Part shown: piece by piece, positions 1-12,288 of the stretch
How the letters are laid out: every line of letters starts with the position of its first letter
Numbering within the stretch: position 1 is the first letter of the stretch
NCBI RefSeq assembly: GCF_014863405.1
Contig: NZ_JACZZA010000010.1
Span: 1 to 64,000, forward strand
DNA: 64,000 nucleotides
Direction of reading: 5' to 3'
Origin: Dyella acidiphila
GTDB taxonomy: Bacteria; Pseudomonadota; Gammaproteobacteria; Xanthomonadales; Rhodanobacteraceae
Notes under the pieces: generated by a model
The model's input: only the letters and a program-made list of their open reading frames with translations
Database searches by the model: none
What the model was told of the DNA's origin: nothing
Position numbers and translations under genes: made by a program

Positions 1-127
1 CAACACGGTTCGGCCGCATAGCGCGTTGAATTATCGGCCACCGGCTCCTGAAGCTGTCCTGCCAGCCATCCAGGATGTACATCTGAAGCTCGCTGCTTAA
101 ACTAACCCTACATCTGGACCAGTTAGT
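1..127 (+). mobile_element. 3' end of an IS3-like insertion sequence (transposase C-terminus)
   Basis: Reading frame 2..100 encodes the last 32 residues of an integrase-fold transposase and ends at a TAA. The motif NTVRPHSALNYRPPAPEA is the classic C-terminal rve_3 signature of IS3-type (OrfB) and related transposases. The rest of the element lies before the window. The bases after the stop (to about 127) should contain the terminal inverted repeat, but the left end is not visible, so the exact boundary is inferred. The next gene is picked up without its 5' end immediately afterwards, so the element appears to have inserted into that gene or mediated a deletion there. Confidence 0.8.
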
Positions 128-829
128 GCAGGCCACTCAACCGACACGTTCGGCATTCGTACGCTGATTCGCCCTTCGGAAGACACCACCGTCAACGCAG
201 GCGACACGCCGTGGTCGATGTTCAAGCTTTCGGGCAACGGCGTGCGCTCCGATTTCATCGTGCTCGCGCCCACGCTTGGCGTGGCCGAGGAAGCCGATGC
301 CATTGAAGAAGTGCAGTTCCTGCGCGACGACATGGCGGCGATGGCATGGGCCGTTGAAAATCAACTGCAAGGCGATCTGGATAAAGCGGTCGATGGCCAA
401 GAAGCTTATTTGCGCTGGCTGAAAGCCAATCCCGTGCCGCCGCCACCGCAAGCCACCGCAAATGGACCACAGATCTACTACACGCTGGAAATACCCGCAC
501 CCAACAACTGGATTCCCATGGTGCCCGAACAGGCCCCCGACGGCGCTTTGTATCTACGCCGAGGCACCATGATCATTCCCACCACCAGCGGACCGTATAC
601 CGTTACCGCCCGTGCGGAATTGCTCGACCCGGGCACGCCGTTTTTCCTGCTCGATCATGTGGTTCCGCGATCCGGCGTACTCGCCGATCGCTATTTCCGT
701 CGTGCACGATCCGCCGATGGAAATACGCTTCTATGGCTCGCGCGTAAATCAGGAGCAGGCAAAGGCCCGGGCTGGTCTGGATTGCGTTTCGATGTCGTCC
801 GCCAGGAAACGTCTGCGCCAAGCCCATAG
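128..829 (+). pseudogene. 5'-truncated hypothetical protein gene next to the IS
   Basis: An open frame runs directly out of the IS end (from about 128) to a TAG at 827..829 and gives about 230 residues. The apparent start at 218 (ATG) is internal: coherent sequence such as TDTFGIRTLIRP precedes it. The C-terminal part has features I associate with a large uncharacterised bacterial family: EEVQFLRDDMAAMAWAVEN, YTLEIPAPNNWIPMVPEQ, LRRGTM, and a terminal [11 protein letters not shown]. No function is known to me. The N-terminal part is missing, so it is called a pseudogene. What was lost cannot be judged from this window. Confidence 0.65.
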
Positions 830-840
830 CGAATCAGGTC

Positions 841-1134
841 CGCCGTTTCAGCAAGTTGCTTGCCGCGGAAGCGGGCATGAGCACGTCGAGCCTGTACGAG
901 CATTTTCGTGCGGTGACGGCGATGACGCCGCTTCAATTTCAGAAGCAGCTCAGGCTGCAGGACGCGCGCAGCCTGATGCTGGTGCAGGACATCGACGCTA
1001 CGACTGCCGCCTTCCGCGTGGGTTACGAAAGCCCAACGCAGTTCAGTCGTGAATATCGCCGCCACTTTGGAGAACCGCCGGCGCGTGACATAGCTCGCTT
1101 GCGCGCGTCGCAGGGCCTGGCAGTGGTGGCTTGA
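841..1134 (+). pseudogene. AraC-family regulator, C-terminal fragment
   Basis: The frame encodes only the DNA-binding half of an AraC/XylS regulator: [19 protein letters not shown] is the first helix-turn-helix, followed by [19 protein letters not shown] and the second HTH with its [20 protein letters not shown] signature. The usual sensor domain (about 180 residues) is absent. Upstream in frame only about 10 more codons are open, with no plausible start or ribosome binding site (the nominal start is TTG at 856). It follows the other truncated gene within 30 bases, so both appear to be debris of one rearrangement. A functional truncated regulator is possible but less likely. Confidence 0.75.
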
Positions 1135-1232
1135 GATCAGCCTGCCGCTGTTGGCGCGCTAATCGCCCTGCACTGATGCTGGCTACGAACCAACAGCTGG
1201 GCCCCACTCTTGCATCCCGAGCTTACCGGTTA

Positions 1233-2243
1233 TCAATGCGAGCCGGCGCTTGCCTCCGCCGCAGCGCGCTTGGGAGTATCGATCGGACACCAGGTCTTGA
1301 GACGCTTGCCATCCCGATAGAGATCGATGCACTCGCGCACTTGCGCCTGGAAAATAATTTCAGCCGTATTGACCGGGCAGCCTTGCGACAGGCCCTTGCC
1401 TTGGCCGTATTCATCGATGCAGGTTGAAAGCGGTACTGGCTTGGCTGGCGTGCCGCCTCCAGCCAATGCCGATGGCGGCAAATTGAGGCGTTCGTCGGTG
1501 TTCTTCGGATCAGGCGGAATCGGCGGCGCGCCGCACAACAAGTTACTAGCCGTGCTGGCCTTTTCCGGGTCGCACATGTCCTTGGCTATTTCCTTGATCA
1601 CATCGTCGATATGCCGGCCTACCGCGCCGCCAAGGGTTTCGTTCGGCGGCGGGAAATACTTATTGAAGCGCGTCGGCTTGTAATGCGTGAAGTCGGTATG
1701 CTCCATGATCTGGCGATCGTCTTTCGGCTTGCTCGCCTTTACCTCGGAGGGTGTGTTGGCCGAGTACTGGATATGTTCGGGCGGCAGGCGGATCGAGCCG
1801 TCGGCGGAAAATATCTGGCTGGCATCCGGGTTGTCGTCAGGCGGGGTCTGCGTTGGCGCGGGCTTTGCAGCCGATGCGTCGATCGACGCTTTATGCGGCT
1901 TTTCAGTGGGCTTGGGTTTCACCGATGGCGCCGATGCCAGCGACACCATGACGGGAGTCGCGGGCGGCGGCAACTGTTTCGCGGGTGTTGCCACGTCGAT
2001 CAAACGCACGCTTAGCGACTGCTCTCTAACCTCCAAGGGCGGTCGCATCGTATTCCAGATCATCAGTGCGAAAAGCGCGTGTAGCGCCAGCACTACGGCC
2101 AGCACCAGCACCCTACCCCGCGGATTCAAGGACCGCGTGGACCAGGGCGCCTGATTTTTGTACGTATCAATCTTGCAACGCGCAGCATCTTGCGCATGTA
2201 CTTGATCGAGATCCTGTCCAGGAGCTTCGATAACCCGCCTCAT
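1233..2243 (-). CDS. hypothetical single-pass membrane protein, proline-rich
   Basis: 336 residues. Seen: a short cytoplasmic N-terminus, one membrane segment (residues about 44-64, RVLVLAVVLALHALFALMIW), then a long Pro/Lys/Ala-rich stretch to about residue 150 and a periplasmic region with five or six cysteines (DMCDPEKAS, LLCGAPPIPPDP, STCIDEYGQG, GCPVN, RECIDLY, TWCPID). The architecture resembles TonB-like or energy-transducing proteins (N-terminal anchor plus proline-rich spacer), but the canonical TonB C-terminal domain is not recognisable. The two C-terminal 'C-I-D-x-Y' segments look like an internal repeat. I do not recognise the family by name. The start (ATG 2243) is preceded by GTGAGAG. 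Function unknown. Confidence 0.7.
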   Translation of the reverse strand: MRRVIEAPGQDLDQVHAQDAARCKIDTYKNQAPWSTRSLNPRGRVLVLAVVLALHALFALMIWNTMRPPLEVREQSLSVRLIDVATPAKQLPPPATPVMVSLASAPSVKPKPTEKPHKASIDASAAKPAPTQTPPDDNPDASQIFSADGSIRLPPEHIQYSANTPSEVKASKPKDDRQIMEHTDFTHYKPTRFNKYFPPPNETLGGAVGRHIDDVIKEIAKDMCDPEKASTASNLLCGAPPIPPDPKNTDERLNLPPSALAGGGTPAKPVPLSTCIDEYGQGKGLSQGCPVNTAEIIFQAQVRECIDLYRDGKRLKTWCPIDTPKRAAAEASAGSH

Positions 2244-2532
2244 TCACGCTAATTACTCTCACAACACTAACGCTACTAGCCACGCGCGTATTGCAGCCAG
2301 CCCAGTAGACCTGTCGTATTCACCGAGGTTCCTCGAATAAACGCCTGGAACGAAATCAGGGCCCATCAGGCCAGATTCAATGCGCAACGCATTCGGCCAA
2401 TCGTTTTAATTTGCGATCGGGAGCCATGGGCCACCGGTGCAAATCCCACAGCCTTCATGCGTATGGAGTGTCAGAAGCTCGTAAACGGGTGCGCCCCTAA
2501 ATTTGTGGGCGACGCGTGCTCACCGGCTCCCA

Positions 2533-4323
2533 TTAGCTGGGCAGCGCGGACTTCATCTCTGAAGTATCTATCGAGACCTGGTTGCGGCCACTCTCCTTGG
2601 CCCGATAAAGCGCGGCGTCGGCGTCGATCAGCAACTGGCGCAGCGTGAAGCTCGAGTTGGCGGTACAGGCCATTCCCAAGCTGGCGGACACCATGACGGC
2701 CACCTGGGAATCCAGCATCACTGGCGTCGTGGCCAAGGCATTGCGGATGCGATTTGCCGCCTCCAACCCTTGGTCGCGCAAACAGCCCGATATCAGGATA
2801 CCGAACTCCTCACCACCCAAGCGGCCGAGTAGATCCGTGGGGCGCAGTTCGCGGGCAACAATCATCGCGGCAGAACGTAATACCTGGTCACCCGCGGCAT
2901 GTCCGTGCGTGTCATTGACCCGTTTGAAATGATCCAGGTCCAGCACGATCAGGCAGGCATCGCCGCCAGCCTTGTGCAGCTGCCGTAGCGCTCGCCTCGC
3001 TTCGGCGAAAAAGTGTTCGCGGTTGTACGCCCGGGTCAGGCCGTCGTGTCGCGCCATCCAGCGAAAACGCCGCCAGGAACGCCACAGCCACAGCATGGCC
3101 AGAACGAAGAAGGCGATCACCGCCAGCAGTAGTGCGTTGAACAACCGGCTGCTTTTCTGCGCCTGGCTCGCCAGGGCCTGGCTAAGCTGGAGAATTTTGT
3201 TCTCTTTGCCCAGGGTCTCCGCCTTCATCTTCGCGGCCAAGACCTGCTGCCTGACTGTCTGGTAGGCCAAGGCAATCGCCTTGGCATTGTCCATGGCGGC
3301 GGTTTTCTGGGCCGCGTACTTTTCGTAATAGGCCAGCGCGGCGGCATCATGGCCCTGCTTCTTTTCCGCCTGATAGAGAACCTCATAGGCGTCCTGCAGT
3401 GTCCACAACGGACTGTTCGGGCCCGTGATGGCAATGCTGTCCAGGGCGAATTTTCGCGCCCTGACTGCGTCGCCCAGGCGCAGATAGGCCCGGGCCTGGG
3501 TAACGGGCAGCGAGGCAAGATAAGGCGTGTAGTCAGTGCCCTCAATCTCGGGGGCAATGCTGTGCAAGAAGGCGATGGCCTGATCGGCATGGCCTTCGTC
3601 GACCATTTGGTAGGCCTGATCCAGGCGCAGCGCATCGGCTTGAAGGGACTCCCCCGCGGCAAGGCATCGGTCAATCGCAGCCTGAAACGCGGGGCTGGTC
3701 GAGGCCAAATTGCCCGCATAGAGCATGGACTGCGTTTCGAGCGCGTTGGCGTAACACTGGCCTTTGGCCGAAGGAAGCAATGCCTTCATCTGACGGGCAT
3801 ACTCCAACGCCAGATCGTGCTGCCCCACAGGGGTCTGATCCAGCATCAGGATGACCTCCTCCATGCCTTCCAGGCGCGCCTGCGGGTTATCGACCCTGGG
3901 GAGTTCAGCCATCAAGGTGTTGGCCAGCGCATAAGCGCTCACGTAATCGCGATTGAGGAACTTGTCGCGGATCAACGCCGCCATCGCACGGATCGACAAG
4001 GGCAAGTCGCCCGAGTGATCGATGATGTCGTGCAGGATGGGCTCGGCCTTGGCGTAGTCACCCTTGTCTGCAAGCAACTGCGCATTCAGCAGTCGGAAAT
4101 GCCAGCGCTGGGTGGAAGTGAGCTGATCTTCGTGCTGCTGCAATTGCGCCAAAATAACCCGAAAACGGGAAATATTATTCGACCACGCATCGTCAGCCTG
4201 CGTCAGCCATGCCTCGGCTTGGGCGTTATCGACCGACGCCGTTCCCGACTTTGCATCCATGCACAGCAGGAGAGCCGCCATAACGGCGGCTACTGCCAGG
4301 CCAAGCGACACACCACGTACCAT
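2533..4323 (-). CDS. membrane-anchored diguanylate cyclase with periplasmic TPR-like sensor
   Basis: 596 residues. An N-terminal signal/anchor (residues 5-22) is followed by about 350 helical residues that look like TPR repeats, a membrane segment at about 390-412 (LFNALLLAVIAFFVLAMLWL) and a C-terminal GGDEF domain (HDGLTRAYNREHFF onward). The active-site signature is intact as GGEEF near residue 503, and an RxxD inhibitory site (RPTD) lies at the usual spacing before it. The protein should therefore make c-di-GMP from GTP with product feedback. It starts 14 bases after the stop of the borosin precursor-like gene on the same strand, so co-transcription is likely. No strong ribosome binding site is visible at the chosen ATG. 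Confidence 0.88.
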   Translation of the reverse strand: MVRGVSLGLAVAAVMAALLLCMDAKSGTASVDNAQAEAWLTQADDAWSNNISRFRVILAQLQQHEDQLTSTQRWHFRLLNAQLLADKGDYAKAEPILHDIIDHSGDLPLSIRAMAALIRDKFLNRDYVSAYALANTLMAELPRVDNPQARLEGMEEVILMLDQTPVGQHDLALEYARQMKALLPSAKGQCYANALETQSMLYAGNLASTSPAFQAAIDRCLAAGESLQADALRLDQAYQMVDEGHADQAIAFLHSIAPEIEGTDYTPYLASLPVTQARAYLRLGDAVRARKFALDSIAITGPNSPLWTLQDAYEVLYQAEKKQGHDAAALAYYEKYAAQKTAAMDNAKAIALAYQTVRQQVLAAKMKAETLGKENKILQLSQALASQAQKSSRLFNALLLAVIAFFVLAMLWLWRSWRRFRWMARHDGLTRAYNREHFFAEARRALRQLHKAGGDACLIVLDLDHFKRVNDTHGHAAGDQVLRSAAMIVARELRPTDLLGRLGGEEFGILISGCLRDQGLEAANRIRNALATTPVMLDSQVAVMVSASLGMACTANSSFTLRQLLIDADAALYRAKESGRNQVSIDTSEMKSALPS

Positions 4324-4337
4324 CGAAGGCTAATCGG

Positions 4338-4643
4338 TTATCGCTTATGGTCCGGAGGCGAATGCGCCTTATCCGCTTCGTCTTCGTCATGCTGCGGCAC
4401 GTTATCCGGATCGTCTTCGCAGGGATCGCAGCCGCCATGACCGGGGTTGTTAGGGGGGTTCATCGGGTGATGCTTGGGCCCGAGCTCATGGATGAGGCCA
4501 TCCTTGTCACCGGATGCCGCTGCCACTTTCAGGCCTTCGCTGGCATTCAATTCGCCGAGCACCTGCGCCAGATCTTCCGGCGAAGCGTGACGCAACGATG
4601 CGTCCTGCCCGATGCGCTCCAGCAGCTCAATCGTCTTGGACAT
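4338..4643 (-). CDS. putative borosin-type RiPP precursor (split system), 101 aa
   Basis: The start is taken at ATG 4643 (MSKTIELLERIGQDASLRHA), preceded by an AGGAGCAGGGG-like ribosome binding site; an upstream in-frame ATG at 4676 has none. Residues 1-55 are a compact helical segment that resembles the binding domain of SonA (Shewanella) and also Nif11-like leaders: 'ERIGQDASL...' then 'ASEGLKVAAASGDKDGLIHELG', compare SonA 'TQLGQDAQL...' and 'INAVMTGDMEKLKTLSG' (from memory). Residues 56-101 are a low-complexity tail rich in Pro, Asn, His, Asp and Glu with a CDPC pair. The methyltransferase lies 190 bases upstream on the same strand. The precursor role is inferred from context and leader resemblance; the hydrophilic tail is unusual for a borosin core. 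Confidence 0.68.
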   Translation of the reverse strand: MSKTIELLERIGQDASLRHASPEDLAQVLGELNASEGLKVAAASGDKDGLIHELGPKHHPMNPPNNPGHGGCDPCEDDPDNVPQHDEDEADKAHSPPDHKR

Positions 4644-4832
4644 ATTTATCCCCTGCTCCTGTTGTGGATGAATCATTCACCCCGCTGGAGGCGATGAAAT
4701 GCATCTCCAAGGGCGAGGTCGCCGCATGCAAGTGGGCGCACAGCTCGGAATCTCATCACAACGCGGCGCCCCCAAACACCGCTATATAGCCTACCACCGA
4801 TCGGCAAGGCGCATGACGGCACCCCCGCGGCG

Positions 4833-5672
4833 CTAGCTAGCCGACGCCATGGCCTGATCCAGCGCAGCCAGCCGCTTGCGTACCGCATGATTGGGGCGCA
4901 GCGGCGATGCCGGCTGCAGCACCACGGTTTCCTCGGCGCTCACGTCCACCGCGGGCAGGTCACGCAGGGTCACATGGCGAATGCGCGGCTGCTCGATCGG
5001 CAAGGTGGCGCCGCGATAAATGATGACCTCATGGTCCAGCGGGTAATCCCGGCTCAGCACATCCACCAGCACTTGCCGGTACTCGGGGCCGGTGGAAAAA
5101 CGCGCCATTGAGCGGTCGCCGACCAGGCCCACCTGCCACAGCACCAGGCAGGCACTGGGATTGATCGGCGTGTCGTAGAACAGCAACTGGCCGGCCTCGT
5201 AATGCTGGCAGCCGAGGCGGCCGGGATCGATGCCCAGGTCCGCATAGAGGCAGTCCTCGGCTGAGATACCTGGCTCCATATGGGCCTGGAAACCCTCCGC
5301 ACGGGCCACTTTGATCACTTCATGCGGCGACCAGGCGAAGATGCCGGGATGGCCATAAAACACGGCGCAAACCCGTTTGCCGGCCCGTATCTCGTCCATC
5401 ATCACCTCGACCCATTCGCGATAGGTCACTGCGCGCGACTTGTTTTTGCCATCGCCATAATACGGCTGCAAGCTGCGCACATCCGGGTGCATGTGTTCCA
5501 GCCACACCTCCACAATGGCGTCGGAAAGCGCCGCGAACACCACGTCGGCCTGCTGGATATAGCTGCGCGACAACGGCGAGAGATGCGAACCCAGCGTCAT
5601 GCCCAGCCCCACACAGGCGATGCTGCCGCGTGTTTCGGCGTCTGCGGGTTTGGCCGGTGATACAGATGTCAT
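4833..5672 (-). CDS. borosin-type peptide alpha-N-methyltransferase (SonM-like)
   Basis: 279 residues, tetrapyrrole-methylase fold, S-adenosylmethionine dependent. It resembles SonM of Shewanella, the free-standing methyltransferase of split borosin systems that methylates backbone amides of a separate peptide. Shared stretches include LSRSYIQQADVVFAALSD, FYGHPGIFAWSPH (SAM-binding GHPG at 107-110), EGFQAHMEPGISAEDCLYAD, LGIDPG and YPLDHEVIIYRGA. The residues matching the catalytic Tyr/Arg/Tyr set appear present (Tyr71/72, Arg80, Tyr84 in YYGDGKNKSRAVTYREW). Unlike fungal OphMA it carries no peptide at its C-terminus, which fits the split type. The start is ATG 5672. A corrin or sirohaem methylase is less likely because the EPGISAE/LGIDPG pattern is that of the borosin branch. 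Confidence 0.85.
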   Translation of the reverse strand: MTSVSPAKPADAETRGSIACVGLGMTLGSHLSPLSRSYIQQADVVFAALSDAIVEVWLEHMHPDVRSLQPYYGDGKNKSRAVTYREWVEVMMDEIRAGKRVCAVFYGHPGIFAWSPHEVIKVARAEGFQAHMEPGISAEDCLYADLGIDPGRLGCQHYEAGQLLFYDTPINPSACLVLWQVGLVGDRSMARFSTGPEYRQVLVDVLSRDYPLDHEVIIYRGATLPIEQPRIRHVTLRDLPAVDVSAEETVVLQPASPLRPNHAVRKRLAALDQAMASAS

Positions 5673-6026
5673 AGCAGATATCCAGGAAGTTAATGTGGAA
5701 TGGCGCCCGCGGCCGCGCGCCGATATTCCGTTTCGGCGCTGGCGAACGGCGAATATACCGTTTCACCGACCCGCATCGCTGCTATCTGGGTTTTTCCACC
5801 GCCCTGCATAACCCGTCATCTACGCACGCCAGCGGATGCGGCCGTTCCAAGGCAGCAGGAGCCTTATGGGGAAACAAATCGCCGCATTATGTAATATATA
5901 AAAATCAATTACTTATGACTAAAAAGTAAGCATATCCTTAGTAGCTCAACGCACTTTCAGAAGTTCTGCTGGCAGAAAAGCCGCTACATAATGCGCGCTC
6001 ATCAGCGATGAACCGGGGGGCGCATT
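5673..6026. promoter_or_regulatory. intergenic control region of the borosin locus and the divergent membrane-protein gene
   Basis: No gene is seen in these 354 bases. Two near-identical direct repeats lie 45-95 bases upstream of the methyltransferase start: CGATATTCCGTTTC (5721-5734) and CGAATATACCGTTTC (5750-5764). Their spacing of about 29 bases, close to three helical turns, would suit a dimeric or tandem regulator. A marked AT-rich stretch at 5886-5940 (TATATAAAAATCAATTACTT and beyond) is the likely promoter zone for the rightward gene at 6027. Regulator unknown. Confidence 0.4.
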
Positions 6027-6530
6027 GTGGAAGAAAAAGCTTATCTGCCGCCCGGCACGAGCGCGCTCAACCCAGGCACGTATCCGCGAAGCTACGCCAC
6101 GCCCATTTCCTTTCGTTTGTGGCGGGCGGGTTTAGCCATCGCCTTTCTTTTCATGTTTCGCGGCATCATCCAAATAGGCGCGTCACAGCACGACACCGGG
6201 CAACGGATTGCGTTTGTGCTGATCGCCCTGGTGCTGCTGGCTTGCCTGGTTGCTGCAGTCAAGTCCGTCATAGCGCCCAAGCGCGTGACGCTGACGGCAA
6301 CCAAGCTCACCATTACCCAAATGTTCTCCAGCACGCAATCCACGTACCGCAAAGACATCGCCGAATGCAGCATAGGAAGGGTCAAGTGGCTTTACATCGC
6401 CATACGCTCCCGCCATCCGAAGGCGAAGCCAATCATCCTTCCATTTATGAACTACGACGACGCGTTCTGGGATTGGTTCTCTGGCATTCCCGGCGACCGC
6501 ACATCGCGCGAACTGAAATGGTGGTCCTGA
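6027..6530 (+). CDS. hypothetical small membrane protein
   Basis: 167 residues from a GTG start at 6027 (GGGGGGCGCATT upstream gives only a weak ribosome binding site). Two membrane segments are visible at about 32-47 (GLAIAFLFMFRGIIQI) and 60-82 (RIAFVLIALVLLACLVAAVK). They are followed by a cytoplasmic beta-rich domain with KRVTLTATKLTITQMFSS and ECSIGRVKWLYIAIRS, which is reminiscent of bacterial PH-like (bPH) membrane proteins. No catalytic motif. It is the only gene between the divergent borosin locus and the lanthipeptide locus. A role in either is possible but nothing in the sequence requires it. Confidence 0.6.
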   Translation: MEEKAYLPPGTSALNPGTYPRSYATPISFRLWRAGLAIAFLFMFRGIIQIGASQHDTGQRIAFVLIALVLLACLVAAVKSVIAPKRVTLTATKLTITQMFSSTQSTYRKDIAECSIGRVKWLYIAIRSRHPKAKPIILPFMNYDDAFWDWFSGIPGDRTSRELKWWS

Positions 6531-6938
6531 TTCCGGCGCGCACTTTCCGGGCGGGGCATCCCCAGGACTGCGACTCAGCATGCCTCCCTACCGATGTCTC
6601 TGGCCGGCGGATCCTCTATTAAGACAGGCAAGGTTTCAGCCCGGTGACCGGCAATTTCAGGCCCCAACCTGGTACACGCACGTCCCACCCGGCAACTCTT
6701 TGCGTCCCGCTTATGAGTTTCGGCCGTATCTATACGCCGTCTACACATATCCCGGCTCATGGTAATCAGGCGGCGTCCGCCCGGGGGAAACAAATGCGTG
6801 AGAGTCATGGATCCCTGCTTGGGATATAGCCCGCCGCGTACATTTTGAACGCTAGCATTCGGGGCAGCTTGTCGGTGCCCGCGGGTATCGAAACTGTTAC
6901 CGAATTCCTTTCTCTATGACCTGCAAAGGAGTTCAGCT
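6531..6938. other. intergenic region upstream of the lanthipeptide genes
   Basis: 408 bases without a convincing gene; short open frames here (for example 6580..6765) lack ribosome binding sites and any recognisable sequence. The last part is the promoter/leader of the first precursor. It ends with GACCTGCAAAGGAGTTCAGC, which is nearly duplicated before the second precursor (7187-7209), evidence that the two precursor units arose by tandem duplication including the 5' leader. Confidence 0.5.
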
Positions 6939-7133
6939 ATGCAACAGAATGATGAGGTAGTTTCCGGCTGGCTTAATGGCGACGATTGCGTCGCCGGTTA
7001 TGACAACCCGGCCGGCTCGCTCTACGTGGATAACGCCACGGAGCAAAAGATGACGGCTCAAGCGGGTGCCGAAATGATCGACACCATGCTGAAGACCACG
7101 CAGTCCTGCGCTTCCGGCTGCGCTTGTTGCTGA
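6939..7133 (+). CDS. class II lanthipeptide precursor peptide 1 (LanA)
   Basis: 64 residues with a strong ribosome binding site (AAAGGAG, 9 bases upstream). The leader is acidic, with VVSGWLNGDD, a DNPAGSLYVD segment and a short QAGA that could be the double-glycine-type cleavage site. The C-terminal core ends in TTQSCASGCACC, with four cysteines and several Ser/Thr that a LanM can dehydrate and cyclise to (methyl)lanthionine. It is followed at once by a paralogue and by lanM, so the assignment rests on small size, Cys/Ser/Thr-rich end and context. Cleavage position and ring pattern are not determinable from sequence alone. Confidence 0.88.
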   Translation: MQQNDEVVSGWLNGDDCVAGYDNPAGSLYVDNATEQKMTAQAGAEMIDTMLKTTQSCASGCACC

Positions 7134-7145
7134 TTTTCCGATCGG

Positions 7146-7179
7146 GCCAACGCACAGCCAGTTCTGGCTGTGTGTTGGC
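7146..7179 (+). promoter_or_regulatory. stem-loop between the two lanthipeptide precursor genes
   Basis: Left arm GCCAACGCACAGCCAG (7146-7161) pairs with CTGGCTGTGTGTTGGC (7164-7179), a 16-bp stem with one G-T pair, followed by a short T-run (CTTTTCC). It begins 12 bases after the stop of precursor 1. This is either a leaky terminator/attenuator or an mRNA-stabilising 3' structure that would let precursor mRNA outnumber lanM mRNA. Seen directly; the role is inferred. Confidence 0.65.
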
Positions 7180-7210
7180 TTTTCCGTGACCTGCACAGGA
7201 GTTTTCAGCC

Positions 7211-7402
7211 ATGCAACAGCATGATGATGTTGTTTCCGGTTGGCTCGATGGTTCGGATAACTGCGGCGGCCAGGATAATCCGGCCGGCCCGCTTTACCTT
7301 GATAGTTCCGCCGAAGAAAAGATGACCGGCCAGTCGGCGGCCGCGATTTTCACGACCCAGAAGACGACGCAATCCTGCGCATCGGGTTGCATTTGCTGCT
7401 GA
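7211..7402 (+). CDS. class II lanthipeptide precursor peptide 2 (LanA paralogue)
   Basis: 63 residues, collinear with precursor 1: MQQHDDVVSGWLDGSDN, then QDNPAGPLYLD, a QSAA possible cleavage site and a core ending TTQSCASGCICC. The last 12 residues differ from precursor 1 at one position only (Ile for Ala), whereas the segment just before (AIFTTQK versus EMIDTMLK) differs. The ribosome binding site ACAGGAG lies within a duplicated leader (GACCTGCACAGGAGTTTTCAGCC). Both precursors are probably processed by the LanM that follows. They could be a two-component pair or simply a duplicated substrate; the near-identity of the C-terminal ring region argues for duplication. Confidence 0.88.
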   Translation: MQQHDDVVSGWLDGSDNCGGQDNPAGPLYLDSSAEEKMTGQSAAAIFTTQKTTQSCASGCICC

Positions 7403-7413
7403 TCTTGCATCCG

Positions 7414-7450
7414 GGCCAGCACACAGCTGGATCCGCGCTGTGTGCTGGCC
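7414..7450 (+). promoter_or_regulatory. stem-loop between precursor 2 and lanM
   Basis: Perfect 14-bp arms GGCCAGCACACAGC (7414-7427) and GCTGTGTGCTGGCC (7437-7450) around a 9-base loop, with no T-run after it. It is similar in sequence to the stem-loop after precursor 1, so it was probably duplicated with the gene. It lies 46 bases before the lanM start and probably limits read-through or stabilises the upstream mRNA. Confidence 0.65.
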
Positions 7451-7496
7451 GCTCCCTATTCCCATTGCGTCATCGCAGGAAGGCGATTCGAAGCAC

Positions 7497-10316
7497 ATGA
7501 TGGCCGAGACCCTTACACCCGATGCCTTCGCGCCCGTGTTCGAGCATTTCACCGCTACCGTGCGCACTGCGTTGGGCAAACGCCTGGCTGCGATGGCGGG
7601 ACTCGATGCCGGGGAAGTATTGCTGATCCGCAAGGCTGCCGACGAAGCGCTGCGTGCCAACGCACGACTCAAGCTAAATCGCGTACTGCTGCTGGAATTG
7701 CATGCGGCCAATCGATGCGGCCAGCTGACTGCGGAAAGCGATACGGATCGCCACGATCAATTTGTCGACTATGCGCAGCAAGCCGAATTTACCGATCACC
7801 TGGATCAACGTTATCCGGCCTTGCATCGGCGCCTGCAGCGATCTCTCGAACAGCAAGCCGGCGCGATCGAGGCCCTCGCCTCTCGCCTGGCCACCGATCG
7901 CGCCTTGCTGACGCACTTCTTCGGTCGTGCGGCCGGGCGCCTCATGGCGCTGAGCCTGGGGCAAGGCGATCTCCATGCCGGTGGCCACACGGTGGCACGG
8001 CTGTCGCTGGAAGCCGGCGAGATTATGTACAAGCCGCGCTCGCTGCGTGTCGATATGGCGCTGGATAGCTTTTTGCAGCGCGTATTCGGCGAAATCAACG
8101 AGCGCATCCGCGTGCCCGAGGTCATTGACCGGGGCCATTACGGCTGGGTTTCTTTCGTCGTCCATCGCTATTGCGAAGGCGAGCAGGAGCTGCAGGCGTT
8201 TTATCTGCGGCTCGGCCATTGGCTGGCAGTACTGCGCTTGCTCGGTGGTACCGATATTCATCACGAAAACCTGATTGCTGCCGGCCCGATGCCGGTGGTT
8301 ATCGATGCCGAAAGCCTGTTCGCCGTAATTCCGAAACCGGCCGCTTCCGGTGGCGGCCTGGCGCACGATGCTGCGCAGATGCTGATCGCCGGCTCTGTTT
8401 TGCGCACTGGCATAGTGCCCTTCCGTGCCTCGGATGCGGGCTTCGACGGCGCCGATCTTTCGGCGGCCGGCGCGCTGCCCAATCAGCAGCCGAAGGTGCA
8501 GATTCCCGTAATCGTCGATGCGGGCACCACCGAGGCGCGGTTAAAGCTGGTCGATACCGATATCGTCCATGCCCAGAATCATCCGAGTGCCCTTCCCCAG
8601 GTTTCCGCTTATTGGAGCCAGATAAGCGAGGGATTCCTGGCGGCCTCCCATATCCTGCGCGACCTCGACGCAAGCGGCGTGCTCGAAGCATGGCTGCGGG
8701 ATTTTGAAGGCTGCCCGGTACGCGATCTTCGGCTGCCCACGCAGACGTATGTGGAGCTTGGCCGCATGCTGTGGCATCCGGCATCGCTGCACGATGAGGC
8801 CAAGGCGATCGAGCGCGCCCGCGATCTTTTCTCCCGCAATGCCGCCATTACTGCGGTAACCGCATCCACGCCCGCGGAAATCAGCGGCACGATCGACGAT
8901 CTGTTGTATGGCGATATTCCGGTTTTCGTGGCTCCATTGAAGCGCTCACGCATCGATGCCGCCCTGGCGGACTGGCGCGCGATGCGGATCGACCTGGAAG
9001 AGCTGACCATTCGCTGCGCGCTGGTCACCACCGAACTCAACCGGCGCGGCAACCTGCCCGACCCGGTCAGCGATGGCCGTCTTTGCCGTGCACAAGCACC
9101 GCATGCCGAGCAGTTGGATGCACGCCGCCGCAAGCTGGCCGCAGATGTGGTCGAGCGCCTGCTGAAACTTTCCGTGTCCGGCGCCGACGGCTCGGTGACC
9201 TGGATTACGCCGGAAACCACGACGGAAGGCTGGTTTATCCAACCGCTGCAGGGCGATATCTACTTCGGGCTCGGCGGCGTTACCGTCGCGCTCGCCGGCT
9301 ACCTGCGCGAAGTGCACGATGGCCGCGCCAACCCGGTGCCAGGCATTGAGGCAGCATTGAATGGCGCCCTGCATACCCTCACGGCGCTTGAAGCAATCCA
9401 GCCGCCCCGAAATATCGGCGGTTTTGCCGGCTACGGCGCCCAGATCTGGACCTGGCTGACATTGCGCGAGCTGCTGCAGCGCCCCGAATTGATCGAGCGC
9501 GCCGTGGCCAGCGCCGAAGCACTGGAAGCGAAAGGCCTGCACGGCGACGACGGCTTCGACATCATCGACGGTGCCGCCGGTGTCATCGTGCCTTTACTGG
9601 GCCTGGCAGACGCCACGGGCGATGCACGCTGGCTGGCATTGGCTGCGCGGGCGGCTGAGCATCTGGAGAACACCGCGGTAATCGACGCCCTCGGCGCACG
9701 CTGGATGACTCGATTCGAGCAGGCAATTGGCGGATTTTCCCATGGCGCCACCGGCATCGGCTGGGCCCTTGCTCGCCTTGCTGCGTCCGCAGCAGGCAGC
9801 GCGGCCGACCGCAGCCGCTGGAGTGCGCTGGCCGACGCCGCGTTCGCGTTCGAGGATTCGCTCTACGAAGAAAGCTGCGGCAACTGGATCGACAAGCGTC
9901 ACCCGGAACTCAACAAGAGCCACGATACCTGGTGCAACGGCAGCGTCGGCATCGGCCTTGCGGCGGCGGATCTCTATGCGCGCAGCGGCGATGCGCGCCA
10001 TCTGCAGCGGCTGCGGCGTGCAACAGTGGCAGCGCGTGGCAAGTGGGGCATCAGCCACACCTTGTGCCATGGCGATTTTTCGCTGTGGGAACTACAAATG
10101 CGCGCTGCTGCGCTCGATCCCGTTGCTTGCGCCGAAGACCTGACCGAATCGGCGGCGCATGTTATTTCGTCGATCGAAGAGCAGCGCGGCATTGTCACCG
10201 GCAGAGCGCGCGCCGCGTTTACACCGGGCTTGATGAACGGGCTTGCGGGCGCCGTGCACGGACTGAGCCGATTGCATCCGGAATGTACGCTGCCCTCGCC
10301 ACTGCTATTGGAATGA
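7497..10316 (+). CDS. lanM: class II lanthipeptide synthetase LanM
   Basis: 939 residues from ATG 7497 (AGGAAGG upstream; the second ATG at 7500 is an alternative). The N-terminal half is the LanM dehydratase domain (DUF4135 type), a kinase-like fold that phosphorylates and eliminates Ser/Thr: the lysine motif MYKPRSLRVD near 177, GGTDIHHENL near 249 and VIDAESLF near 267 are all present. The C-terminal part (from about 600) is a LanC-like cyclase: SHGATGIGW near 747, WCNGSVGIG near 811 and LCHGDFS near 856 provide the zinc ligands Cys, Cys and His. The length is typical of the family. Both domains look intact, so it should install lanthionine rings in the two upstream peptides. No lanT or other export gene follows: the next gene is convergent. 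Confidence 0.95.
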   Translation: MMAETLTPDAFAPVFEHFTATVRTALGKRLAAMAGLDAGEVLLIRKAADEALRANARLKLNRVLLLELHAANRCGQLTAESDTDRHDQFVDYAQQAEFTDHLDQRYPALHRRLQRSLEQQAGAIEALASRLATDRALLTHFFGRAAGRLMALSLGQGDLHAGGHTVARLSLEAGEIMYKPRSLRVDMALDSFLQRVFGEINERIRVPEVIDRGHYGWVSFVVHRYCEGEQELQAFYLRLGHWLAVLRLLGGTDIHHENLIAAGPMPVVIDAESLFAVIPKPAASGGGLAHDAAQMLIAGSVLRTGIVPFRASDAGFDGADLSAAGALPNQQPKVQIPVIVDAGTTEARLKLVDTDIVHAQNHPSALPQVSAYWSQISEGFLAASHILRDLDASGVLEAWLRDFEGCPVRDLRLPTQTYVELGRMLWHPASLHDEAKAIERARDLFSRNAAITAVTASTPAEISGTIDDLLYGDIPVFVAPLKRSRIDAALADWRAMRIDLEELTIRCALVTTELNRRGNLPDPVSDGRLCRAQAPHAEQLDARRRKLAADVVERLLKLSVSGADGSVTWITPETTTEGWFIQPLQGDIYFGLGGVTVALAGYLREVHDGRANPVPGIEAALNGALHTLTALEAIQPPRNIGGFAGYGAQIWTWLTLRELLQRPELIERAVASAEALEAKGLHGDDGFDIIDGAAGVIVPLLGLADATGDARWLALAARAAEHLENTAVIDALGARWMTRFEQAIGGFSHGATGIGWALARLAASAAGSAADRSRWSALADAAFAFEDSLYEESCGNWIDKRHPELNKSHDTWCNGSVGIGLAAADLYARSGDARHLQRLRRATVAARGKWGISHTLCHGDFSLWELQMRAAALDPVACAEDLTESAAHVISSIEEQRGIVTGRARAAFTPGLMNGLAGAVHGLSRLHPECTLPSPLLLE

Positions 10317-10347
10317 CGGCTGGGCGCGATGGCCTGCCGCCCCCGTC

Positions 10348-11193
10348 CTACACAATCGGCACCTGGCTGATATTGTTCTTCGGATCCATCCAGAACGATT
10401 CATTGACGAAACGTCCGAAGATTTCCCGCGGCAGGATCGAAGCCCGCTCCACCGGCTCGACCTTCGGCCTTACGGTATGCAGCCCAGGCATGCCCACCCG
10501 CGCATCGAATTCATCGGCGTTATAGGCAATATGGTCGAAGTCGTGCTCGAACCAGGGCTCGCCGATAAACTGGTATACCGCGCGCATCGCCGCAGCCGGG
10601 TTGCGCACCAGGCTTTCATAGGTCAGCAGCAATAAATGCCCCGGCGCGTACTGGCCATAGAACGCATCCTTGGTGGCCTGGAAGGCGAAGCCCACCATGC
10701 CGCGCGGATCGGTCAGCGCCTCGATGCGCGAATACACGGTGGTATTGGTATCGAAGCGGAACACCTTGCTGACGCCGACCGGCTGTTTGCGCACAAGCCG
10801 CTCCATGCTGTCCAGCACCCATGACAACTGCCGCACGCAGGCGATGACCTTGGCCTGCGGGAACAAGGTATCGAGCAGAGACATGCGGCTGCACCACAGC
10901 CGGCTGGTGTCGAATACGAGATCGGCGTCGCCATAGCCTTCGTAGAAGTTGTGGACCAGGCCGCGCAGCATGGCAACGCGCTGTTCGTCGGAGACGTCGA
11001 AGGAAAAGTCGTTTTTGCTGCTGGCCTCGGCGATCACCATGCCCATGATGTCGGCCAGCGGGCTGGTCATGCCGGCGCGAAAGCGCGGGTTCTGGTTGAG
11101 GATGGCGGCCAGCAGCGTGCTGCCCGAGCGTGGCAGCCCCGAAATGAAATGGAACTTCCGGCCTGGCTTGGCGACCTCCGGTGCGGCTGGCAT
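10348..11193 (-). CDS. PAPS-dependent sulfotransferase family protein
   Basis: 281 residues. FISGLPRSGSTLLAAIL (residues about 16-32) is the 5'-phosphosulfate-binding loop of the sulfotransferase family. VIACVRQLSWVLDSM, near the middle, matches the 3'-phosphate-binding region, and LLLTYESLVRNPAAAM the later conserved segment. No signal or membrane segment, so it is cytoplasmic. The ribosome binding site is GAGGAGAG before ATG 11193. It lies 81 bases downstream of the LacI gene on the same strand, so it could be the last gene of the sugar locus. It converges on lanM with 31 bases between stops, so tailoring of the lanthipeptide by sulfation is conceivable but unsupported. Substrate unknown. 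Confidence 0.85.
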   Translation of the reverse strand: MPAAPEVAKPGRKFHFISGLPRSGSTLLAAILNQNPRFRAGMTSPLADIMGMVIAEASSKNDFSFDVSDEQRVAMLRGLVHNFYEGYGDADLVFDTSRLWCSRMSLLDTLFPQAKVIACVRQLSWVLDSMERLVRKQPVGVSKVFRFDTNTTVYSRIEALTDPRGMVGFAFQATKDAFYGQYAPGHLLLLTYESLVRNPAAAMRAVYQFIGEPWFEHDFDHIAYNADEFDARVGMPGLHTVRPKVEPVERASILPREIFGRFVNESFWMDPKNNISQVPIV

Positions 11194-11274
11194 GCGGGCA
11201 CTCTCCTCTGGGTCGATACGGCAAATGGCTAAAACGCGGCGCCCTCTTTGGGGGCTATGCCGGATGGTACGCGA

Positions 11275-12288
11275 TCAGGGCTGTGCGGTAGGCGCAGTGG
11301 AGGCGCGGATGCACATCTTGTAGTCGACCTCGACCATCCTGGCCTCGCCCTTGTTGAGTACGCGCAACAGCAGTTCCTGGGTGGCGCGCCGGCCCATCTC
11401 GCGCACCGGCTGGTGGATGGTGGTGAGCGGCGGCCACACCTGCGTGGCGATGGTCGTATCGTCGAAGCCGCAAATGGAAATATCGCGCGGCACCGCCACG
11501 CCCGCTTCGGCCGCGGCCCAGATCGCGCCCACCGCCATATCGTCGTCGGCTGCAAAGATCGCGGTTGGCCGCTGCGGCAAGGCCAGCAGCTGGCGCATGG
11601 CGTCCACGCCCGATTCGAAGGAAAAGCGGCCCTGCACCATATAAGTGGAGTCTTCTTCCAGCCCTGCCCGCTTGAGCCCATCGCGATAGCCGGCCATGCG
11701 CCAGATACCGGCGCCATGCTCCGGATCGCCCAGAATGTGCGCGATGCGGCGATGACCGAGCGATACCAGGTGCTCCACCATGGCCGCGGCCGCCTCGCGC
11801 TCGCGCAGCATCACGCCGATGCAGTTTTCCGGCTGGCGCGGTGCGATCGAGGCGAACGGCAGGTCGTGCTTGTGCAGGCAGGCCAGCAGCTGTGGATGGT
11901 CGGTGAGCGGCGGCGTCAGGATCAGGCCGTCGGGCTGGTGCCGCGTGAGGATGTCCTCGACTCGCTCGACGAAGTCGGCGGCGGTGGAGACCAGCGGCTG
12001 CACCATCATGCTGTAGTGCTGGGCCTCGCAGGCTTCCAGCACGCCGGCCTGTACTTCCATGATGTAGCTGGGCGAGCGGTTGTCGTACAGCAGGCCGATC
12101 ATGAAGGAGCGATTGGCCGCCAGGCTGCGTGCCGAGGTGAGCGGCCGATAGTTGAGCTCCGCCACGACGGAAAGCACCCGCTGGCGCAGGGACTCACTCA
12201 CGTTGGGATCGTTATTGAGCACCCGCGAAATGGTTTTTTTCGACGTCCCCACGGTGCGGGCGACGTCGCTGATGGTCACACGCGTCAT
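11275..12288 (-). CDS. LacI-family transcriptional regulator
   Basis: 337 residues from ATG 12288 (MTRVTISDVARTVGTSKKTI); the open frame extends 14 codons further up, but that overlaps the upstream gene's end without a better start. The N-terminal HTH has the canonical ISDVARTVGTSKKTISRVLN and hinge helix LTSARSLAANRS. A periplasmic-binding-protein-like sugar domain follows, with HRRIAHILGDPEH, AIFAADDDMAVGAI and ISICGFDD. It begins 16 bases after the glucosaminidase gene, so it belongs to that operon and probably controls it. A palindrome TTGTCACCGGTGTCAA upstream of glucokinase (21440-21455) is of the type these repressors bind. Confidence 0.92.
   Translation of the reverse strand: MTRVTISDVARTVGTSKKTISRVLNNDPNVSESLRQRVLSVVAELNYRPLTSARSLAANRSFMIGLLYDNRSPSYIMEVQAGVLEACEAQHYSMMVQPLVSTAADFVERVEDILTRHQPDGLILTPPLTDHPQLLACLHKHDLPFASIAPRQPENCIGVMLREREAAAAMVEHLVSLGHRRIAHILGDPEHGAGIWRMAGYRDGLKRAGLEEDSTYMVQGRFSFESGVDAMRQLLALPQRPTAIFAADDDMAVGAIWAAAEAGVAVPRDISICGFDDTTIATQVWPPLTTIHQPVREMGRRATQELLLRVLNKGEARMVEVDYKMCIRASTAPTAQP

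Follow-up and report, generated by a model that had tools for sequence, protein, structure and literature searches.

The window analyzed here is a stretch of 64,000 nucleotides of Dyella acidiphila (contig NZ_JACZZA010000010.1 of assembly GCF_014863405.1, positions 1–64,000). Three neighboring minus-strand genes in it resemble a split borosin, a kind of ribosomally synthesized and post-translationally modified peptide (RiPP) whose backbone N-methyltransferase is separate from its precursor, followed by a receptor-like gene. Two of the open reading frames (ORFs), of 279 and 101 residues, were described in a first-pass annotation of this DNA and are both present on the minus strand. The third, a protein with TPR, transmembrane, and GGDEF regions, was absent from that annotation; it starts 14 bp past the precursor stop on the same strand. 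The precursor start is the ATG at 4643, with AGGAG/AGGGG in the bases upstream. A search of window positions 1–12000 with Rfam, up to E 1, gave no match, and scans of 2400–6100 for promoters and terminators gave results at chance level. The features are as follows.

4833..5672, minus strand: split-borosin backbone alpha-N-methyltransferase, 279 aa, without a fused peptide (assigned from SonM homology, active-site residues, and tree)
4338..4643, minus strand: precursor, 101 aa (family profile leading to SonA; predicted leader fold)
4479..4643, minus strand: leader, precursor residues 1–55, a predicted five-helix borosin binding domain (fold prediction and profile)
4341..4478, minus strand: presumed core (about residues 56–70) and acidic, Pro/His-rich tail up to residue 101
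2533..4323, minus strand: receptor-like gene, 596 aa, with a signal-like N terminus, TPR superhelix, transmembrane helix, and GGDEF domain
4258..4314, minus strand: receptor N-terminal hydrophobic segment, residues 4–22 (hydropathy)
3358..4227, minus strand: receptor TPR superhelix, residues 33–322, presumed extracytoplasmic (predicted fold)
3088..3144, minus strand: receptor transmembrane segment, residues 394–412, within a long predicted helix
2578..3054, minus strand: receptor GGDEF domain (Pfam PF00990, 3.3e-41) with an RxxD inhibition site and GGEEF at 2803–2817

The motifs LSRSY, YGHPG, EPGISAE, and LGIDPG, from which a likeness to SonM had been drawn, are all found in the 279-aa protein, and the likeness is borne out. 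Among structures in the PDB, SonM matches with an E-value of 1.3e-73 over residues 16–268 and OphMA-type enzymes match at 5.4e-45 to 1.2e-41 (phmmer). The SonM active-site residues Y58, R67, Y71, and Y93, studied with mutants in Miller 2021 (PMC8429565), align to Y72, R80, Y84, and Y106 of the window enzyme; all four are kept. A 38-row tree groups the enzyme with a relative from Rhodanobacter glycinis (84% identity) and SonM with three Shewanella-type enzymes (support 99/97). Alternatively, the enzyme could be a corrin or sirohaem methyltransferase beside an unrelated small ORF, and it does fall in Pfam TP_methylase. However, the best NCBIfam corrin models reach 26.9 and 26.2 bits where their cut-offs are 525 and 302, and the sole corrin enzyme among the PDB matches has an E-value of 7.8e-4. 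Two CysG-like enzymes of the same genome sit on a branch of length 10 whose join to L218 the tool flagged as possibly false, and a third enzyme of that genome, L199, has no placement in the tree. On the NCBIfam scores, the SonM match, and the tree, we rejected this alternative and give it next to no weight. The search and tree proposed in the first-pass annotation thus place the enzyme with the kin of SonM and not with corrin or sirohaem enzymes. Nor is it a fused borosin, in which the core is joined to the enzyme; the 279-aa ORF has no peptide domain. Its assignment by homology as a split-borosin (type IV) backbone N-methyltransferase is well supported, and from this we infer methylation itself.

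Searched by itself, the precursor sequence has no PDB match within E 10, but a profile of its family (54 members) has SonA as its top match and aligns without gaps to SonA 1–64. The predicted leader has five helices within residues 2–54, and its best solved structural matches are SonA chains; no secondary structure is predicted for the region past the leader (residues 56–101). Of the SonA/Nif11-like helical leader that had been claimed, the SonA part stands on profile and predicted fold. The Nif11 part does not: Pfam Nif11 matches 1 of the 54 family members, at E 0.011, and that one is not the window protein, and with this single weak match we dropped a Nif11 leader as unsupported. A chance lone ORF was also rejected: in 78 of 80 named loci, the best among at least 577 relatives, the leader is again next to the enzyme, and the other two loci end at the enzyme. 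That 4338–4643 encodes a SonA-type precursor with a predicted five-helix leader is well supported.

In the receptor-like protein, both GGEEF and RxxD are intact, and by its residues the GGDEF domain keeps the catalytic motif expected of an active diguanylate cyclase. Two Cys are invariant in the TPR region (alignment of 55), and a PDB sequence search with this region returned one match, at E 0.89. An N-terminal hydrophobic segment is present in 75 of 86 complete receptors and a transmembrane segment precedes GGDEF in all 86. By eye, many of 19 Shewanella-type receptors have a signal peptide.

Linkage of these genes is conserved across Rhodanobacteraceae-type genomes. Of 233 family genomes, 162 encode a borosin-type enzyme, which makes the system common in the group, and the window genome has four copies; the expectation of a rare new variant is not upheld. 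In 73 of the 80 named loci the precursor is followed by a TPR receptor gene (in L113 and L164, both counted, the contig ends before GGDEF), and three loci are cut by contig ends, giving 73 of 77 with an intact contig. The earlier description as a two-gene type is therefore correct in that the system is split and not fused, but the two genes are not the whole system. Among protein families in 60 loci of at most 20 kb, the receptor is found in 51, the enzyme in 46, and the precursor in 25, a low count that reflects the poor clustering of short ORFs; the next family reaches 10.

The association extends to whole genomes. With lists compared by eye (thresholds E 1e-20 for the enzyme and E 1e-15 for the sensor), 157 of the 233 genomes have enzyme and sensor, five enzyme only, one sensor only, and 70 neither. 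In the five enzyme-only genomes the enzyme is joined C-terminally behind GGDEF in a single protein of 821–870 aa, preceded by a weakly matching SonA-like precursor. Pfam finds TPR, GGDEF, and TP_methylase in the one fused protein searched; these loci are L211–L215, with two fusions in tandem at L214. In the window genome all four sensor matches lie inside borosin loci. We also chose ten receptor places seemingly without an enzyme, one of which proved to have it. At seven of the other nine the precursor adjoins the receptor, and precursor plus receptor is the constant unit at these enzyme-free places.

Outside the family, 20 enzyme places were found and 19 examined (G954 was left out), with precursors recognized weakly or by eye. 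A linked receptor is present at 13 of the 19, with GGDEF in 11 and a histidine kinase plus receiver instead in two; one of the 11 (L216) is of both the GGDEF and the histidine kinase type. The TPR proteins with histidine kinase/receiver, replacing or beside the cyclase, are at L216:10474-13434 (−), L217:10383-13631 (+), and L247:8564-11419 (+). In one distant genome a borosin-type enzyme domain is part of a 1174-aa ORF, and no receptor was recognized nearby (L248:4340-7864, −). The SonM–SonA locus itself also has the third gene. At L257 the enzyme is 100% identical to SonM over 254 query residues, the order is sonM, sonA, and a TPR-GGDEF gene, and the latter begins 0 bp past sonA. Across 20 Shewanella-type loci picked by hand from a listing, a GGDEF gene is downstream in all 20 (in two frames at L258) and a SonA-like precursor is recognized in 17. 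In five of these genomes, nine of ten sensor matches are beside a borosin enzyme.

Variation in the core correlates with variation in the TPR domain. In 104 cassettes, using a 14-residue core and partial correlations, core–TPR r is 0.43 when GGDEF and enzyme are controlled and 0.28 when the leader is controlled as well, whereas a core–enzyme correlation is absent (0.02). Across the full set and four subsets, core–TPR ranges from 0.23 to 0.38, at the permutation floor in each. We regard this covariation as support for, and not proof of, a sequence-based prediction that the TPR domain receives the peptide.

We propose, with a probability of about 0.6, that the three genes form a receptor-coupled split borosin in which an N-methylated peptide binds a TPR receptor of its own, which controls cyclic di-GMP (c-di-GMP). 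The basis is homologies, predicted folds, gene order, catalytic motifs, topology from hydropathy, conserved linkage, and covariation. The methyltransferase would dock the precursor's helical leader and, by analogy to SonM–SonA, N-methylate backbone amides just past it. A protease would free the modified peptide, which would then pass to the periplasm and bind the TPR domain of the membrane protein whose gene lies downstream. Binding is predicted to alter the cytoplasmic GGEEF diguanylate cyclase and thereby the c-di-GMP level, in one direction or the other.

Two other explanations draw on the same loci. The peptide may be secreted as an ordinary natural product, with the TPR-GGDEF gene merely regulating it and sensing something unrelated to it. 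Fungal borosins are known as natural products, arrays of up to 11 precursors resemble product diversification, and some loci lack a receptor. Against this, precursor and receptor are also paired at loci that lack the enzyme, core and TPR domain covary, and no exporter is conserved; we consider a natural product unlikely. The absence of a conserved exporter, and of a conserved protease, fits a precursor that is a cytoplasmic partner: methylated or not, it would stay bound to the enzyme and act on the cyclase from inside, with no release. The fusions in five genomes, which would keep the cyclase on the cytoplasmic side with both enzyme and precursor, are consistent with this. However, the domain that covaries is the TPR domain, which hydropathy places outside, and the apparent signal peptides of the Shewanella-type receptors point the same way, making action from inside improbable.

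Several observations also weigh against a secreted ligand with its own receptor. The main gap is the lack of a conserved exporter: in the 60 loci (of at most 20 kb) neither exporters nor proteases form a family that recurs next to the cassette. The precursor also shows no signal peptide on inspection by eye. Linkage has exceptions: the precursor lacks a receptor in four of the 77 intact loci (L159, L162, L174, and L183), the C5 enzyme of the window genome is accompanied by two short precursors and no receptor, and six of the 19 outside-family loci (L218–L222 and L248) have no receptor. Conversely, genome G080 has a sensor and no enzyme, no precursor was found beside receptors L187 and L194, and none was recognized at L237 and L246. 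In ungapped register, the methylated L63 and I65 of SonA correspond to P63, which has no NH, and N65 in the window core; P63 is present in 6 of 109 nonredundant cores. Other residues near these two could be methylated. Covariation is not exclusive to the TPR domain, as core–GGDEF is weakly significant (0.09, p 0.013) in the 104 cassettes, and of the five sets core–enzyme is significant in two and core–GGDEF and core–leader in three each. The leader–TPR correlation is higher still (0.58), implying that shared descent explains part of the core–TPR signal.

The acidic tail was considered as a receptor-binding element. We counted acidic residues in 162 precursors from overlapping locus sets, deduplicated on the last 60 residues and sorted, with two calls corrected by hand, into 119 next to a receptor (117 plus L054 and L066, in which the receptor ORF was extended upstream), eight without a receptor, 32 followed by another precursor, and three at a locus edge. 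Four or fewer acidic residues are found in five of the 119 receptor-adjacent precursors, and three or fewer in all eight receptor-less ones, one of which (L055) adjoins a GGDEF fragment. SonA-type precursors nevertheless lie next to receptors without such a tail, so the tail tracks the receptor only within the Dyella-type group, and TPR domains are not positively charged (median net charge −6, n = 86, and −9, n = 19). For these reasons tail binding is a weak idea, and both findings count against the proposed ligand–receptor pairing.

More broadly, we regard it as an even bet that gammaproteobacterial split borosins, among them SonA, are N-methylated signals and not antibiotics, each with its own extracytoplasmic TPR receptor and with exchangeable outputs (a diguanylate cyclase or a histidine-kinase phosphorelay). 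That related enzyme–precursor–receptor trios are widespread suggests signals rather than antibiotics. N-methylation may give the peptide stability or membrane passage, making an exporter unnecessary. Should the conserved neighbor prove to be the receptor, what a large RiPP group does could be put to a direct test in a laboratory strain. To our knowledge, a backbone-N-methylated ribosomal peptide signaling into c-di-GMP would, if true, be an unusual case.

Other features lie within or near these loci. Tandem arrays of 11 precursors at L070:6090-9680 (−) and seven at L075:9963-12582 (+) each have one enzyme and one receptor; all their precursors except the receptor-adjacent one have short tails and PQ..Q cores. 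Precursor tails at L155:6369-6746 (+), L156:6300-6698 (+), and L158:5922-6311 (+) contain two CC-containing core-like segments. In the window, a class II lanthipeptide-like locus adjoins the borosin cassette (6939-7402 and 7440-10316, plus strand), with two short ORFs ending in QSCASGC[AI]CC ahead of a 958-aa LanM-like gene (DUF4135 and LANC_like). Downstream of the lanthipeptide gene, at 10348-11193 (−), is an ORF whose start is sulfotransferase-like by eye (SGLPRSGSTLLAAIL).

The window cassette is closest to SonM–SonA of Shewanella oneidensis (type IV), in which, according to Miller 2021, enzyme and precursor are likewise separate. The two enzymes are 45% identical, with the same four active-site residues, and the sonA locus shares the five-helix leader and the TPR-GGDEF gene directly behind the precursor. 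The window precursor differs in its long acidic tail with CxxC and in having Pro where SonA is first methylated. The words "cyclase," "signal," and "regulat" do not occur in the main text of that paper, and a search of open-access literature for the sonM–sonA locus tags returned this paper only, without SO1480. Fused borosins (OphMA and dbOphMA) have a homologous enzyme, and the leader fold resembles their clasp region, but their core is on the enzyme and that of the window is not fused. Membrane diguanylate cyclases share GGEEF, the inhibition site, and the transmembrane helix with the window receptor, which differs from ordinary ones in having a TPR superhelix as its sensor and a RiPP precursor gene as its neighbor. 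Searches of the open-access literature found no paper linking borosins with diguanylate cyclases, nothing relevant joining N-methylation, RiPP, cyclase, and TPR, and only Xu 2024 (PMC11395268) linking borosins with GGDEF. That paper lists borosin types 0–XI, and because the legend of Figure 1, on borosin architectures, names a GGDEF domain, as in the window cassette, at least part of the association is already published, and it may not be new. Split borosins are a known kind; with reserve, the form seen here, a split borosin coupled to a receptor and with an acidic tail on its precursor, is new.
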